Virus record (IMG/VR): IMGVR_UViG_3300030329_001287
Span: 1 to 23,144 of that record
Reading direction: 5' to 3' (one strand)
From: a virus
Length of the DNA stretch: 23,144 nt
A model generated the notes under the pieces. That model was not told the DNA's origin. It was given only the letters and a program-made list of their open reading frames with translations, and did no database searches. Made by a program: the position numbers and the translations under genes. Every line of letters starts with the position of its first letter. Position 1 is the stretch's first letter. This document shows positions 2,777 through 20,744 of this stretch, in pieces.

Positions 2777-3816
2777 TGGCAACATTTGAAGAAAAAGTAG
2801 AAGGTTTAACAAGCATAACAATAACTAATGCATCGACTCCAACTCAGAATGAATTGTCTGAGATGCTTGTTGATGGTGTAGTAGATGTAGTTAATAAGGT
2901 TACAACATTAAAGCCTGATGAATTATCTAAGTTCACTTTAACTACACATTCAACTGGTTCTGTTGAAAAGAAGGGTAAAATATTATCTGTATTGAGAGAG
3001 CATAATAGTGTTGATATATTAAGAATATGTACTCCTATAAGCCCTTCTATGAGATATGAGGCAACAGATACAGATAGTTTATATTATAGGTCTAAATATA
3101 ATCCTGGTTATTATGAATTAGATGGAAGCATTCATTGTGTACCTGGAGCATCTGGCTCAGGAAATAATGATATAGTAGTAACTCAAGTGAACTATGATAC
3201 TGGTTTAGTTTATAGTGATACTTATGGAGCAGGTAATATTGAAAACTTTCCTGTCGATTATGAATATTTAGTAGTATTGTATGCCTCTGCTATGGCATGT
3301 ATGGCAGCTGCTTCTGGAATACATGGTAGTTTACCTAGTAAGCCAACAGCTCCAACTTCTCCTAATTTCGTAGATTCGGAAACTGTATTACCTAATGTAC
3401 CTCAGTATATAGCTCCTGTTTTAGATTTTAGCATGACAGCTCTTGACTCCAAACTAAATGATGAAGATATAGAGATGTCTGAAAAAGAAATGGAAAAGAT
3501 TGATAAGAGGATGGATAAGTTTAGAGCAGAGCAGGATAACAATCAAAAATCATTTACTAAAGAATTAGAAGTATTCAAAGCTGACTTAGATATGTTAGTT
3601 AAGAATTCAGATAGAGCTACTCAAGTTATGGTAGCTGAATATAAAAGTGAAGTAGAGAAATATCAAATGGATACAGCTCAATACACAGCTTCACTACAAG
3701 AAGAAATGACTGAATACAAATGGTATATAGAACAATATGTAGCATTAATGAATCAGTATAATAGTGGTATTATAGGTCAAAGGCCTAAACAAGCTCAAGA
3801 AGAAGGAGGTGAGTAA
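2776..3816 (+). CDS. Neck/head-tail structural protein with C-terminal coiled coil
   Basis: This is a 346-aa protein in two parts. Residues 1-200 start with helices (NELSEMLVDGVVDVVNKVTT), then strands, a YYELDGSIHCVPG element and ENFPVDYEYLVVLYASAMAC near 155-175. That order resembles gp4/gp11-type connector proteins, weakly. Residues about 225-326 are highly charged with heptad-like spacing and no proline, so they should form a long coiled coil. A proline-rich linker (about 187-215) joins the two. The start is TAATG with only a weak ribosome site, so it is probably coupled to the upstream gene. Alternatives are a scaffold-like or internal head protein. No enzyme motif is seen. Confidence 0.6.
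   Translation: MATFEEKVEGLTSITITNASTPTQNELSEMLVDGVVDVVNKVTTLKPDELSKFTLTTHSTGSVEKKGKILSVLREHNSVDILRICTPISPSMRYEATDTDSLYYRSKYNPGYYELDGSIHCVPGASGSGNNDIVVTQVNYDTGLVYSDTYGAGNIENFPVDYEYLVVLYASAMACMAAASGIHGSLPSKPTAPTSPNFVDSETVLPNVPQYIAPVLDFSMTALDSKLNDEDIEMSEKEMEKIDKRMDKFRAEQDNNQKSFTKELEVFKADLDMLVKNSDRATQVMVAEYKSEVEKYQMDTAQYTASLQEEMTEYKWYIEQYVALMNQYNSGIIGQRPKQAQEEGGE
3803..3812 (+). promoter_or_regulatory. Ten-base perfect Shine-Dalgarno site
   Basis: AAGGAGGTGA is fully complementary to the usual 16S rRNA 3' end and lies inside the last codons of the upstream gene, with GGAGG six bases before the ATG at 3816. It is the longest such match I found in the window and suggests that the downstream family member is made in quantity. 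Confidence 0.65.
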
Positions 3817-4319
3817 TGGCAAATGATGGTATAGCTAATATAAGTGCCTCTATATTAAGTGATATAGCTAAAAGCTCTATTGGTGGTAGTATGAATTATT
3901 CACCGATAGATACTGATAGATGGGTATATACTGAAAGAGTAGTAAGTAATGCTTCTGAGCCATTATTACCAACTAGTCAACCATATGCTGAGCAATATGC
4001 ACATACTGAAGCTCAAAAAACAGTTGCAGCTGGAGATAAATATAGATGGCTAGCTATTAAAAATACAGGAACTAAAGATGGTATTGCATCTACAACAGAA
4101 GGTATTGTTATATCTTTAGATGGGGATGCAGCAGCTTATGATGAAGCAGAGGGTATATTTATAGATGCAGGAGATTTATGGATAGGTAAGTTTCCTTCAG
4201 CAACAACTCAAGCAGATATATATTCAGCGTCTGTAGCTGTTACTAATGGTAGTCCTAGTGGTGCTGGTACCTCAGTAGTGTTATGTCAAATTGCGGCTAT
4301 AATGGAAGATATAGGATAG
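3816..4319 (+). CDS. Virion protein family member A (three paralogs in the window)
   Basis: This 167-aa protein is homologous to the products at 11515-12021 and 12030-12521. The shared core is residues 78-128: WLAIKNTGTKDG, then GIVISLDG, then EGIFIDAGDLWIGKFP. It is followed by SASV (137-140) and an I-A-A-I-x-x-D ending. No signal peptide, membrane segment or catalytic motif is present, and the alternating strands suggest a small beta fold. It sits between the coiled-coil neck protein and the adaptor, and has the strongest ribosome site in the window. An abundant surface or decoration protein fits, but the function is unknown. Relative to copies B and C this member has a YDEAEG stretch where they read NL.DG. 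Confidence 0.7.
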   Translation: MANDGIANISASILSDIAKSSIGGSMNYSPIDTDRWVYTERVVSNASEPLLPTSQPYAEQYAHTEAQKTVAAGDKYRWLAIKNTGTKDGIASTTEGIVISLDGDAAAYDEAEGIFIDAGDLWIGKFPSATTQADIYSASVAVTNGSPSGAGTSVVLCQIAAIMEDIG

Positions 4320-11514: not shown

Positions 11515-12021
11515 ATGGCAGATGCAGCCACAATATCAATGAGTGCAACTTTATTACCAGATGAAGTACAGAAGACATTAACAGGGTTAACTGCTACATT
11601 TACTCCTGCAGATGCTAATGATAAATGGTTTTATGGACTTGTTAATGTTACTAATTCTAGTGCAGATTTAATAGCTGGTAATTTTCTTTCTACTGCTGCT
11701 GGTATAAATACTGGCTCATCTTCTCCAGCTATAACTACTTCTGACTTAGTAAAGTTTTTATTTATAAAGAATACAGGAACTGCTGATGGTTCTACTGCAT
11801 CAACAGAAAGTATAGTTATATGCTTAGATGGTGGAACAGCAGCTCATAATTTAGCTGATGGTATTGAGATAGGAGCAGGTGAAGCATGGTATGCTAAATT
11901 ACCTAATACTACCGTTGGAAACTTACATGCTGTTTCAGTTGATAGTAATATGTCTGGTAGTGGTAGTGCTGGCGAAGCAAATGTGCAGTGTATAATAGCT
12001 GCAATAATAGATGATGTATAG
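11515..12021 (+). CDS. Virion protein family member B (three paralogs in the window)
   Basis: This 168-aa protein is homologous to the one at 3816-4319 and to the next gene. The shared core is residues 81-130: FLFIKNTGTADG, then TESIVICLDGGTAA, NLADGIEIGAGEAWYAKLP, followed by LHAVSV (137-142) and IIAAIIDDV at the end. It has no membrane segment or enzyme motif. AAAGGA lies about seven bases before the start. It follows the lysozyme gene, an unusual place for a structural protein, and is in tandem with copy C, suggesting a local duplication after an older split from copy A. Decoration or fibre-associated roles are possible. Confidence 0.7.
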   Translation: MADAATISMSATLLPDEVQKTLTGLTATFTPADANDKWFYGLVNVTNSSADLIAGNFLSTAAGINTGSSSPAITTSDLVKFLFIKNTGTADGSTASTESIVICLDGGTAAHNLADGIEIGAGEAWYAKLPNTTVGNLHAVSVDSNMSGSGSAGEANVQCIIAAIIDDV

Positions 12022-12029
12022 GAGTATGT

Positions 12030-12521
12030 ATGGCAAATGATGCTAAATATAAATCAAGAGCTTCAGTCTTTTCAGATGAGATAAAAGCATCTATGAGTGG
12101 TAAGTGCGACTTTAATGTTGAAGGGGCTACTGGGCATTATTGGTTATATGCATCTAAATTAGTTTCAAATAGTAGTGGAGACTTATTAAGCACAGCTAAT
12201 GACTTATTAGGCTCAGGTACGGCTCTTGCTACTAATGATAAGATTCTTTGGATAGCTATAAAGAATACTTCTACCACAGCTACAGATGGAGTAGTTATAT
12301 GTTTAGATGCAGGCACTGCTGCTTGGAATCTTGGTGATGGAATAGCAATTGGAGCAGGTGAAATGATTTGCTTAAAGGTGCCTCAATGCACCGTTGCTGA
12401 TTTACATGCTATATCAGTTACTATGAGTAAAGAAGCTGGAGTTCCTTCTACTACACATGCAGGTGGTGTTACTGTTCAAGTAGCTGCAGTAATAAATGAT
12501 GTATCAGAAGGTGGAGGTTAA
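12030..12521 (+). CDS. Virion protein family member C (three paralogs in the window)
   Basis: This 163-aa protein is the third copy of the family. The matching blocks are LWIAIKNTSTTATDG (residues 73-87), VVICLDAGTAAWNLGDGIAI (88-107), GAGEMICLKVP (108-118), LHAISV (125-130) and VAAVINDV (151-158). Its N-terminus, MANDAKYKSRASVFSDEIKA, aligns with copy A (MANDGIANISASILSDIAKS) better than with copy B, so the three did not arise by simple tandem doubling of one gene. GGAG overlaps the upstream stop and lies five bases before the ATG. The function is unknown; an abundant structural protein is the best guess. Confidence 0.7.
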   Translation: MANDAKYKSRASVFSDEIKASMSGKCDFNVEGATGHYWLYASKLVSNSSGDLLSTANDLLGSGTALATNDKILWIAIKNTSTTATDGVVICLDAGTAAWNLGDGIAIGAGEMICLKVPQCTVADLHAISVTMSKEAGVPSTTHAGGVTVQVAAVINDVSEGGG

Positions 12522-17808: not shown

Positions 17809-19519
17809 ACAAAGCCAAATATCTAGAGGTAAAGGTCTACCTCCTACATCTGAAGGCAGAGAAGGTGCATTATCTGTAAGAACTGTAAGAGGTATGGGAA
17901 TACAGCTTGCATATAAATTAGGCTCTAAATGGTACTATACTAAGCTTAATGATAGACCTGTAGATAACGGAACTACCCTTAATACTTCCAAAATGCCACG
18001 AATACCAGGCGAACTATCTCTTAGCCATAGTAAGCTATACGTAAAGCCAAGTTCATCTGAATCTGCTAAAGAAGTTTTATTTAATAATAACAATGCAAGT
18101 ATTGGGGCAGGTAGATTAAGCTTAGATTCTGATAAAACTATTACATCATCTGATGGTGCAGTTATACATATAGATGCACATGATATTACTGATAATTATA
18201 CAGCTACAGGCGGTACTACTACATTTGGACATGTTAAGATTGAGCCTCCTGTATTAAAGGCATCTAATGCTGCAGTTACAACATCTCATGCTGGTACATT
18301 AGAAATAACTGGTCCTCCTTCTGCTGGGCTAAATCAAACAATAACTAATCCTTATGATATATATTTATCCAATGCTAGCTCTAAGATAGGGGCTACTGAT
18401 TTAACTATAGATGTTGCAGGAGGTCAACTTACAATAGAGAGTTCTGCTGCTGGCTTTGCAGACCCAGATTTAATACTTATAGGTAAGCATGATAGCTTAG
18501 TAGGATATGCAACACTTCAATTAGAATCTCATAGGAATGGAACCGATAATAGTCAAGATAATGATATATTAGGTGAGATTGGATTTTATGGCTATAATGA
18601 TAACGGTGATAGAACATTGTATTCTGCATTCTATACTACCGCTCTTGATGTAAGTGATGGAGATGAACGTGCTAAGTTTTACTTTCAGGTTCTAACTAAT
18701 TCTGCTGCTAGTGCAGGCTCTGGTTTACAAACAGGTCTAGCTTTAGATGGTAGTACTACAGATGATATAGTTGATGCTTCTATAGCCTATGGAGCTGCAT
18801 CTACGACTACTATAGCTGGAGACTTAAGTATTTCAGGTGACGAGATAGAAAGCGCTGGAGACCTTCAAGTTGATTGTGGTGGAATCTTAAAGCTAGATGC
18901 ACACACAACAGGAGATGGAGAAGGTGTATACTTTCAAATGGCAGGTACTAGGGTTGCAGATATTAATGTTCATCATTTTGGCACTTATCTTAGAATGTAT
19001 GAAAATGGTGGTAATAGTACTGATGATTACTTTGATATTGGAGTATTTGAGCATGGAAGAACTGAGCTTAGAACTAAAGATAATTCAGCTTCTGCTGCTC
19101 ACTTAGAGATTGATGTTGATGGACATACTAAGTTTGATGGTACTGGAGTTGGATTCGTTAGAACTACTTATGCTGATGCTACTAATGTAACTGTAGATTT
19201 TAGAACAGGAAATAAAGCACATTTAGATATGACTGGTGGAAGTATATCAGGAACATTAACATTACAATTTCCTGCAGTATCAGGTAATTTTATACTAGTT
19301 GTTCAACAAGATGGCTCTACAAGAACTATTAATGCATTTGCCACTAAAGATGAAGCTGGTAATACAGGTGATAATGACGGAGCAGGAGATGGTGCTGTTA
19401 GATGGGCTGGAGGGTCTGCTCCAGATTTAACTGATGGTAGTAATAAAAGAGACATACTTGCATTCTATTGGGATGCTACTGAAGAAGTATGCTATGGACA
19501 AGCAAGCTTAAACTTTTAA
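17801..19519 (+). CDS. Tail fibre-like protein
   Basis: This 572-aa protein starts within the last codons of the nozzle gene (ATGAGTAG overlap). The N-terminus (SRGKGLPPTSEGREGALSVR and KLGSKWYYTKLNDRPVDNG) resembles virion-attachment segments of phage fibres. The middle is long and beta-rich with repeated S-x-x-x-L-x-I/V-D turns, as in fibrous trimers. Residues about 470-572 (LTLQFPAVSGNFILVVQQDG, RWAGGSAPDLTDGSNKRDIL, ATEEVCYGQASLNF) match a C-terminal pattern frequent in phage tail fibres. No endosialidase or lyase motif was seen. It is probably a receptor-binding or side fibre; the receptor cannot be deduced. Confidence 0.7.
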   Translation: MSRQSQISRGKGLPPTSEGREGALSVRTVRGMGIQLAYKLGSKWYYTKLNDRPVDNGTTLNTSKMPRIPGELSLSHSKLYVKPSSSESAKEVLFNNNNASIGAGRLSLDSDKTITSSDGAVIHIDAHDITDNYTATGGTTTFGHVKIEPPVLKASNAAVTTSHAGTLEITGPPSAGLNQTITNPYDIYLSNASSKIGATDLTIDVAGGQLTIESSAAGFADPDLILIGKHDSLVGYATLQLESHRNGTDNSQDNDILGEIGFYGYNDNGDRTLYSAFYTTALDVSDGDERAKFYFQVLTNSAASAGSGLQTGLALDGSTTDDIVDASIAYGAASTTTIAGDLSISGDEIESAGDLQVDCGGILKLDAHTTGDGEGVYFQMAGTRVADINVHHFGTYLRMYENGGNSTDDYFDIGVFEHGRTELRTKDNSASAAHLEIDVDGHTKFDGTGVGFVRTTYADATNVTVDFRTGNKAHLDMTGGSISGTLTLQFPAVSGNFILVVQQDGSTRTINAFATKDEAGNTGDNDGAGDGAVRWAGGSAPDLTDGSNKRDILAFYWDATEEVCYGQASLNF

Positions 19520-20073
19520 TGGCCTTTAAAGATAATACATTAATATTTGAAGATACAAAGATAGTTGATACATATTCAGATATGGAAGTTATGATGAGTT
19601 GGGAAGCTCCTATAATGGAGAAGAGCGCTGAATATATATGTCAATCTAAAGGTGATGTATTGGAGATAGGATTTGGTATGGGTATATGCGCTGATTATAT
19701 ACAAGCCCAAGGAGTTAACTCACATACTATTATAGAGATACATCCACAGATATTAGAGAAATTAAATGCATGGGCTAGTGATAAATCTAATGTTACTATA
19801 ATAGAAGGAGACTGGAGCTCTCTATCTATATCAGATAAATATAACGGTATATTCCTTGATACATTCGGAGATGATAATTTAAGTAGATTTAAAGACTTTG
19901 CAATAGCTAGAGCTAATTCAGGATGCAAGGTTACATATTGGAATAACTTTGAGAGAGAGTATAATCCTTATAGTTTTGATTCTGTTAGTTATGAACAGGT
20001 ATCTATATCCCCTGACAGTAATGTTTATACAGAGATGCAGGATAACTATTATATGCCAAAGGTGATATTATAA
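19519..20073 (+). CDS. SAM-dependent methyltransferase resembling guanidinoacetate/arginine N-methyltransferases
   Basis: This 184-aa protein has an AdoMet-binding Rossmann fold. Motif I is LEIGFGMG (48-55); Glu73 ends strand 2 (TIIE) and would bind the ribose; GDW is 97-99. The block SWEAPIM (27-33), LEIGFGMG, HTIIE, GIFLDTF (110-116) and VTYWNNF (138-144) follows human GAMT (RWETPYM, LEVGFGMA, HWIIE, GILYDTY, LTYCN) in order and spacing. Glu29 and Asp114 align with the GAMT residues that hold the guanidino group. It therefore probably methylates a guanidino group, on a small molecule or on protein arginine as RMT2 does. ATG 19519 overlaps the fibre stop; an upstream in-frame ATG at 19489 lies inside the fibre gene. 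No strong ribosome site, so coupled. The target is unknown. Confidence 0.82.
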   Translation: MAFKDNTLIFEDTKIVDTYSDMEVMMSWEAPIMEKSAEYICQSKGDVLEIGFGMGICADYIQAQGVNSHTIIEIHPQILEKLNAWASDKSNVTIIEGDWSSLSISDKYNGIFLDTFGDDNLSRFKDFAIARANSGCKVTYWNNFEREYNPYSFDSVSYEQVSISPDSNVYTEMQDNYYMPKVIL

Positions 20074-20744
20074 TGCCTACTCTTTCACTTACTGCTGGCG
20101 ATGGTGTTATTTATGAATACAAAACTGATACGTTTGCTAATGTAAGGGCTCTTGGAACTACACCTAAGTCTATTCAATCTAATTCTAATGAGACAATAGA
20201 TAATTCTGTTGTATCTGGTAGAGGTAGTGCTGCCAATAATATCGGAAGATACTATTTTAAGTTTGATTCAAGCAGTATAACTTCAACAGTATCATCTGCA
20301 ACATTGAAAATATATGGACAAGGTCATAGTGGATTAGATGTAATAATACTTAAGAGTTCTCAATCTGGCACTCTTGCACAAGGAGACTTTGATGCAATAA
20401 CTGGAGCGGCTAGTGCATTATCATCTAGTGATGGGGTTGGGGCAGGACGACTTAGCACTGTGTCTGCAGTAAAGAAGTATTCAGCTGTAATAACAACATG
20501 GAGCACTAGTGGATATAATGACATTACATTAACTGCAGATGCATTAGCTGACTTGCAGAGTTTAAGTACTTTTTCTTGCGTTATGATTGGTAATGAGGAT
20601 TATATGGACCAAGCACCAACAGGTAGTAATAGGACAGGATTTCATACAGATGCATATACAGGGACAAGTAGAGACCCATATATAGATTATACATTAGCAC
20701 CAACAGCAACAGAAAACTCAATATTCTTTGGGACGAACTTTTAA
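20073..20744 (+). CDS. Tail fibre-associated protein with jelly-roll (DNRLRE-like) fold
   Basis: This 223-aa protein shows R-Y-Y-F-K-F-D followed by SATLKIYGQGHSGLDVIILK (residues about 60-100), then W...YNDITLTADALADLQ and FSCVMIGNEDY (about 147-172). The order R-x-Y-x-K-F-D, S-A-T-L-x-I-Y, W, then the buried strands is that of DNRLRE-type beta-sandwich domains used in surface and adhesion proteins. It ends in SIFFGTNF, similar to the fibre gene upstream (YGQASLNF). It is coupled by TAATG to the methyltransferase gene. It probably belongs to the fibre apparatus. The domain call is tentative. Confidence 0.62.
   Translation: MPTLSLTAGDGVIYEYKTDTFANVRALGTTPKSIQSNSNETIDNSVVSGRGSAANNIGRYYFKFDSSSITSTVSSATLKIYGQGHSGLDVIILKSSQSGTLAQGDFDAITGAASALSSSDGVGAGRLSTVSAVKKYSAVITTWSTSGYNDITLTADALADLQSLSTFSCVMIGNEDYMDQAPTGSNRTGFHTDAYTGTSRDPYIDYTLAPTATENSIFFGTNF

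Follow-up and report, generated by a model that had tools for sequence, protein, structure and literature searches.

What would a methyltransferase of the guanidinoacetate methyltransferase (GAMT) type modify when its gene lies in the tail-fibre operon of a phage? The question is raised by an open reading frame (hereafter MTase) in a 23144-base fragment of an uncultured tailed phage, the whole of which was analysed and is called the window below. The window carries an SU10-type major capsid protein; three of its ORFs, at 3816-4319, 11515-12021 and 12030-12521, belong to one protein family. The preliminary description of this DNA considered a GAMT-type enzyme in a phage unexpected. This applies to its setting in a tail-fibre cassette, which is new, and less so to its mere presence, as viral GAMT has already been annotated and published. 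A protein of an uncultured marine phage, A0A8D9CBY1 (UniProt/BFVD), known from annotation only as 'Putative guanidinoacetate methyltransferase', has 42% identity and a TM of 0.91 to MTase and clearly belongs to the same family. In the part of a 2024 ocean survey that was available, viral GAMT (K00542) is given as 85-fold enriched over microbial homologues and as present in nine Arctic virus populations, where it is read as an auxiliary metabolic gene (AMG) for creatine biosynthesis; that part holds no discussion of tail-fibre linkage (PMC11360552). Phage GAMT as a label is already known, and the cassette setting and its reading are new as far as the literature was searched.

The features of the locus are collected in Table 1. 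An alternative ATG is present at 19489, and the start of MTase was taken as 19519 because the family start MAFKD.. is conserved there among IMG/VR relatives.

Table 1. Coordinates of the methyltransferase, the neighbouring tail genes and selected codons in the window
Feature	Position	Strand	Basis or remarks
f1, tail-fibre-like protein, 572 aa	17801..19519	+	Ends in TAATG with MTase start; PHROG matches of homologues
GAMT-fold AdoMet methyltransferase (MTase), 184 aa	19519..20073	+	Sequence, profile, predicted structure, conservation in viral rows
Glu29 codon (= human GAMT Glu46)	19603..19605	+	Alignment; invariant in viral rows
AdoMet-binding motif GDVLEIGFGMG, residues 45-55	19651..19683	+	Library match, GAMT alignment, family alignment
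Asp114 codon (= human GAMT Asp135)	19858..19860	+	Alignment; invariant in viral rows
f2, virion protein with CBM96-like beta-sandwich, 223 aa	20073..20744	+	Predicted fold; candidate substrate or receptor-binding module
f2 Arg50 codon, GRG loop motif	20220..20222	+	Invariant in 35/35 aligned f2 proteins
f2 Arg59 codon	20247..20249	+	Invariant in 35/35 aligned f2 proteins

A sequence search against solved structures placed GAMT at the top (E from 3.2e-11 to 8e-11; next match, 0.049). Residues 40-138 of human GAMT (chain 3orh) aligned with MTase residues 23-117 (alignment E=3.2e-11); WE29 matched WE46 and D114 matched D135, and the VLEIGFGMGI motif and GxW were in common. The GAMT motifs reported in the preliminary description, in the right order and spacing, were thus recovered, and judged from the sequence their match is well beyond chance. 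In the profile search GAMT (E about 3e-25) was far ahead of the next match, KsgA (0.007), so that the best match did not fall to an unrelated methyltransferase class. The predicted structure of MTase (mean pLDDT 96) also found GAMT as its best Foldseek match (4e-13, TM 0.83; first non-GAMT match, 2e-7). The assignment of this ORF to the GAMT fold family is well supported by sequence comparison and by the structural model. Its Glu29 and Asp114 align with Glu46 and Asp135 of human GAMT (45 and 134 in rat), the residues that hold the guanidino group in GAMT structures; the equivalence, suggested earlier, is upheld by the invariance of the pair in 58/58 viral homologue rows.

Other methyltransferase classes were rejected. 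In Pfam and NCBIfam the matches were all partial and confined to the AdoMet core (about residues 43-105); RrnaAD/KsgA was the best, and no GAMT or RMT2 model was among them. A KsgA/Erm rRNA dimethylase is not indicated, as Pfam RrnaAD covers residues 43-105 only (25.7 bits vs a gathering cut-off of 24) and NCBIfam KsgA reaches 28.9 bits, far under its cut-off of 171. A canonical PRMT (type I-III, with double-E loop and beta-barrel) was dismissed on the absence of PRMT among the Pfam matches up to E=10 and on the single domain of MTase, and a DNA N6, N4 or C5 methyltransferase on the absence of Pfam/NCBIfam matches and on a motif IV that reads DTFG, not [DNS]PP[YFW] or PCQ.

With GAMT (human 3ORH; rat 1KHH, 1XCJ and 1P1B) MTase shares the fold, the AdoMet motif, the VM..WE.P.M motif, GxW and the equivalents of E46 and D135; when structurally aligned, the two are about 23% identical. 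The phage enzyme, however, is about 50 residues shorter, has about 17 fewer residues ahead of the catalytic Glu, and its gene sits in a tail-fibre cassette. Fungal RMT2, an arginine delta-N-methyltransferase, is reported to be related to GAMT and to act on protein arginine. By its description it has a GAMT-like domain with an N-terminal extension, whereas the phage enzyme is the bare domain. Family, fold and the conserved catalytic pair of MTase can be regarded as established.

The same holds for the linkage of MTase to a tail-fibre cassette. Both its start and its stop overlap the neighbouring gene in TAATG, as had been described. Among 62 non-redundant loci the order f1-MTase-f2 was complete in 45, with f1 upstream in 48/60 and f2 downstream in 48/60; the junctions read TAATG in 40/47 (f1/MTase) and 39/47 (MTase/f2) cases. 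The f1 proteins of the relatives vary from 127 to 1140 aa. The f1 of the window itself had no library match; its homologues in loci L018 and L042 match PHROG tail-fibre families, in agreement with the tail-fibre operon proposed at the outset. The genes directly flanking the cassette come from many families and change between loci while the order inside it holds, and therefore f1, MTase and f2 travel as a unit. In L194, too, f2 is adjoined by MTase.

Fibre or tail genes were found around more divergent enzymes as well. In L066-L070 MTase adjoins an S74-type fibre protein and tail sheath, in L050 a LamG protein, and in L061-L064 a collagen-like tail fibre together with a 2OG-Fe(II) oxygenase and glycosyltransferases. 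Collagen-like fibre genes and glycosyltransferases are also present in L052, which has an f2-like domain, and in L073, where the gene upstream of MTase is outside the f1 cluster, yet matches tail-fibre PHROGs. The one exception is L065, in which MTase is located beside replication genes and not fibres.

It should be mentioned that in L061 (2467-5391) and L064 (4954-7884) the oxygenase and a two-domain glycosyltransferase lie near MTase and the collagen-like fibre, which suggests a fibre-modification island. L073 (NZWA01000020.1), filed as a Flavobacteriales MAG, has an MTase-f2 pair downstream of its collagen-like fibre gene and looks phage-like. The L065 gene (4983-5594) is a divergent E/D enzyme between primase-like and SbcC/D-like genes.

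The downstream partner f2 is a variable protein: the mean column identity of its alignment is 29%, and only Met1, Arg50 and Arg59 are fully invariant. Arg50 is mostly found in the context [GAST]-R-G, and the prediction places it in a loop that links strands 39-48 and 53-65. R-G type motifs are favoured by protein arginine methyltransferases. A search for f2 in cultured phages gave no match. The closest Foldseek matches of the f2 model include the alginate-binding CBM96 7VBO (E 3.8e-5) and a chondroitin-sulfate-binding CBM (about 3e-5), and Pfam CBM96 scores 19.4 bits, under its cut-off of 26. In CBM96 the ligand is held by Lys and Arg residues (PMC9971899). By analogy, the f2 arginines may be kept for binding of acidic glycans, methylation aside. 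A weak HMM alignment brings R50 and R59 near CBM96 Lys27 and Arg36; their exact equivalence was not adopted and is a hint from this single alignment, as the register is unstable in others.

Furthermore, the f1-f2 pair occurs in L171 and L174, two loci of one phage lineage, in which a search for MTase gave no match (59 kb were scanned for L171); R59 and R50, the latter within GRSG, are both kept there. The two arginines thus do not depend on MTase, and a strict dependence of R50 on the enzyme is not supported. Since both glycan binding and the L171/L174 lineage fit without methylation, Arg50 is a candidate methylation site only.

Taken together, we hypothesize, with about an even chance of being right, that MTase is an active GAMT-fold enzyme which methylates a guanidino nitrogen, is produced along with the tail-fibre genes and has as its most likely substrate an arginine in a fibre or receptor-binding protein of the phage itself. 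Own virion proteins are preferred as the target because MTase is locked between two tail-fibre genes. The enzyme would use AdoMet and hold a guanidino group by Glu29 and Asp114; we infer this chemistry, and an arginine as its substrate, from the GAMT relationship. It would be co-translated with the fibre genes as part of the cassette and would act on an arginine side chain of f1 or, more probably, f2, and the shortened region ahead of the catalytic Glu could open the site to a protein substrate. New tails would then carry methylarginine, which might tune binding of acidic surface glycans, and hence adsorption, or fibre stability. By mass spectrometry, methylated Lys and Arg have been reported from the structural proteins, a tail fibre among them, of phages for which no methyltransferase is known (PMC13288928); our literature search brought up no description of a tail-directed arginine methyltransferase in phages. 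Against this reading stand the lineage that keeps the f2 arginines without MTase, the resemblance of f2 to CBMs that bind acidic glycans, and the enzyme of L065, located away from fibres. Bacterial E/D members, moreover, often appear, from domain reading, to be fused to large NRPS/FAAL-like proteins, which suggests that the family might have small-molecule substrates as well.

The L065 locus is also consistent with another explanation, namely that the arginine or guanidino methyltransferase is aimed at a host protein or surface molecule and that the tail operon only ensures late expression. The existence of f1-f2 pairs without MTase points in the same direction. However, the tight and recurrent adjacency to fibre genes across very different neighbourhoods argues for a virion target, and we consider a host target unlikely.

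A further question is whether the chemistry itself has been retained. In an alignment of 42 viral sequences with 31-80% identity to the window protein, E29, D114 and N142 are invariant. The invariance of the AdoMet and active-site motifs among viral enzymes argues for catalysis. A scan of bacterial genomes revealed 129 relatives of MTase, 80 of which were kept; they include members from Nitrospira, Chlamydiae, Verrucomicrobia, Bacteroidota and others and have 30-48% identity to the phage enzyme over the core. At the positions of the catalytic pair, 43 of 79 bacterial relatives have the E/D of phages, 32 have Q/H, two L/H and one the intermediate Q/D, and one was uncalled. Many of the bacterial proteins carry Q/H or are fusions with large proteins, and in Nitrospira, Nostoc and Planctomycetes (bacterial set L073-L152) there are copies within very large open frames of about 1000-2800 aa. 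Because both an E/D and a Q/H class exist among the bacterial relatives, E/D is not forced by the GAMT fold alone. On the tree the Q/H bacteria form one clade (100/99), from which the two L/H rows arose, and therefore one or few evolutionary events are indicated. A Fisher test for the E/D vs Q/H coupling was discarded as independent support, since Q/H marks this single clade. With the exception of the long-branch L065, the viral enzymes occupy a side of the tree separate from the bacterial one (support 88/77), and so there is no indication that the gene was recently captured from a sampled host.

The tolerance of the fold for a changed pair, together with the local KsgA/Erm-like matches over the AdoMet core, leaves some room for an enzyme of altered specificity (e.g., for lysine, an N-terminal amine or another nitrogen of the fibre protein) or for a fibre-assembly helper without guanidino chemistry. 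The viral enzymes, however, never leave E/D, and their invariant motifs do not suit a helper that lacks catalysis. We regard this explanation as quite improbable.

It is similarly doubtful, in our estimation quite unlikely, that the gene is an AMG. MTase would in that case be a genuine GAMT and, in the infected cell, would use guanidinoacetate of the host to form creatine or a different methylated guanidino metabolite. The fold and the catalytic pair are as in GAMT, and viral GAMT (K00542) is given as an AMG in the accessible part of the 2024 survey, for genes that may be of the same family as MTase (PMC11360552). However, the phage gene is embedded in a tail-fibre cassette and not near metabolism genes, and no amidinotransferase (PF02274) for guanidinoacetate supply was found in 27 MTase-bearing records, possibly partial and from hosts not identified, in a search in which the positive controls were matched; a metabolite role is less likely for this reason. 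A search for guanidino (creatine) kinase had no match anywhere and was uninformative. To our knowledge, creatine pathways are rare in bacteria, which also counts against the AMG explanation. The setting of the compared loci speaks for a virion protein rather than a metabolite as the target of MTase.

Returning to the fibre proteins as the target, we tentatively propose, at less than even probability, that this locus represents a widespread marine phage tail cassette that brings along a protein arginine methyltransferase descended from GAMT and not from PRMT. It would act on a receptor-binding module, perhaps at Arg50 in the RG loop of f2, and adjust glycan recognition, and the 'GAMT' AMGs of this family would be misread virion-modifying enzymes. 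If true, the phage would encode a protein arginine methyltransferase dedicated to its own tail, and a GAMT-fold enzyme would be shown to work on protein in viruses. The published creatine-biosynthesis reading of ocean-virus GAMT genes would then be corrected, and the cassette would be tied directly to the methylated virion proteins recently reported from phages by mass spectrometry (PMC13288928).
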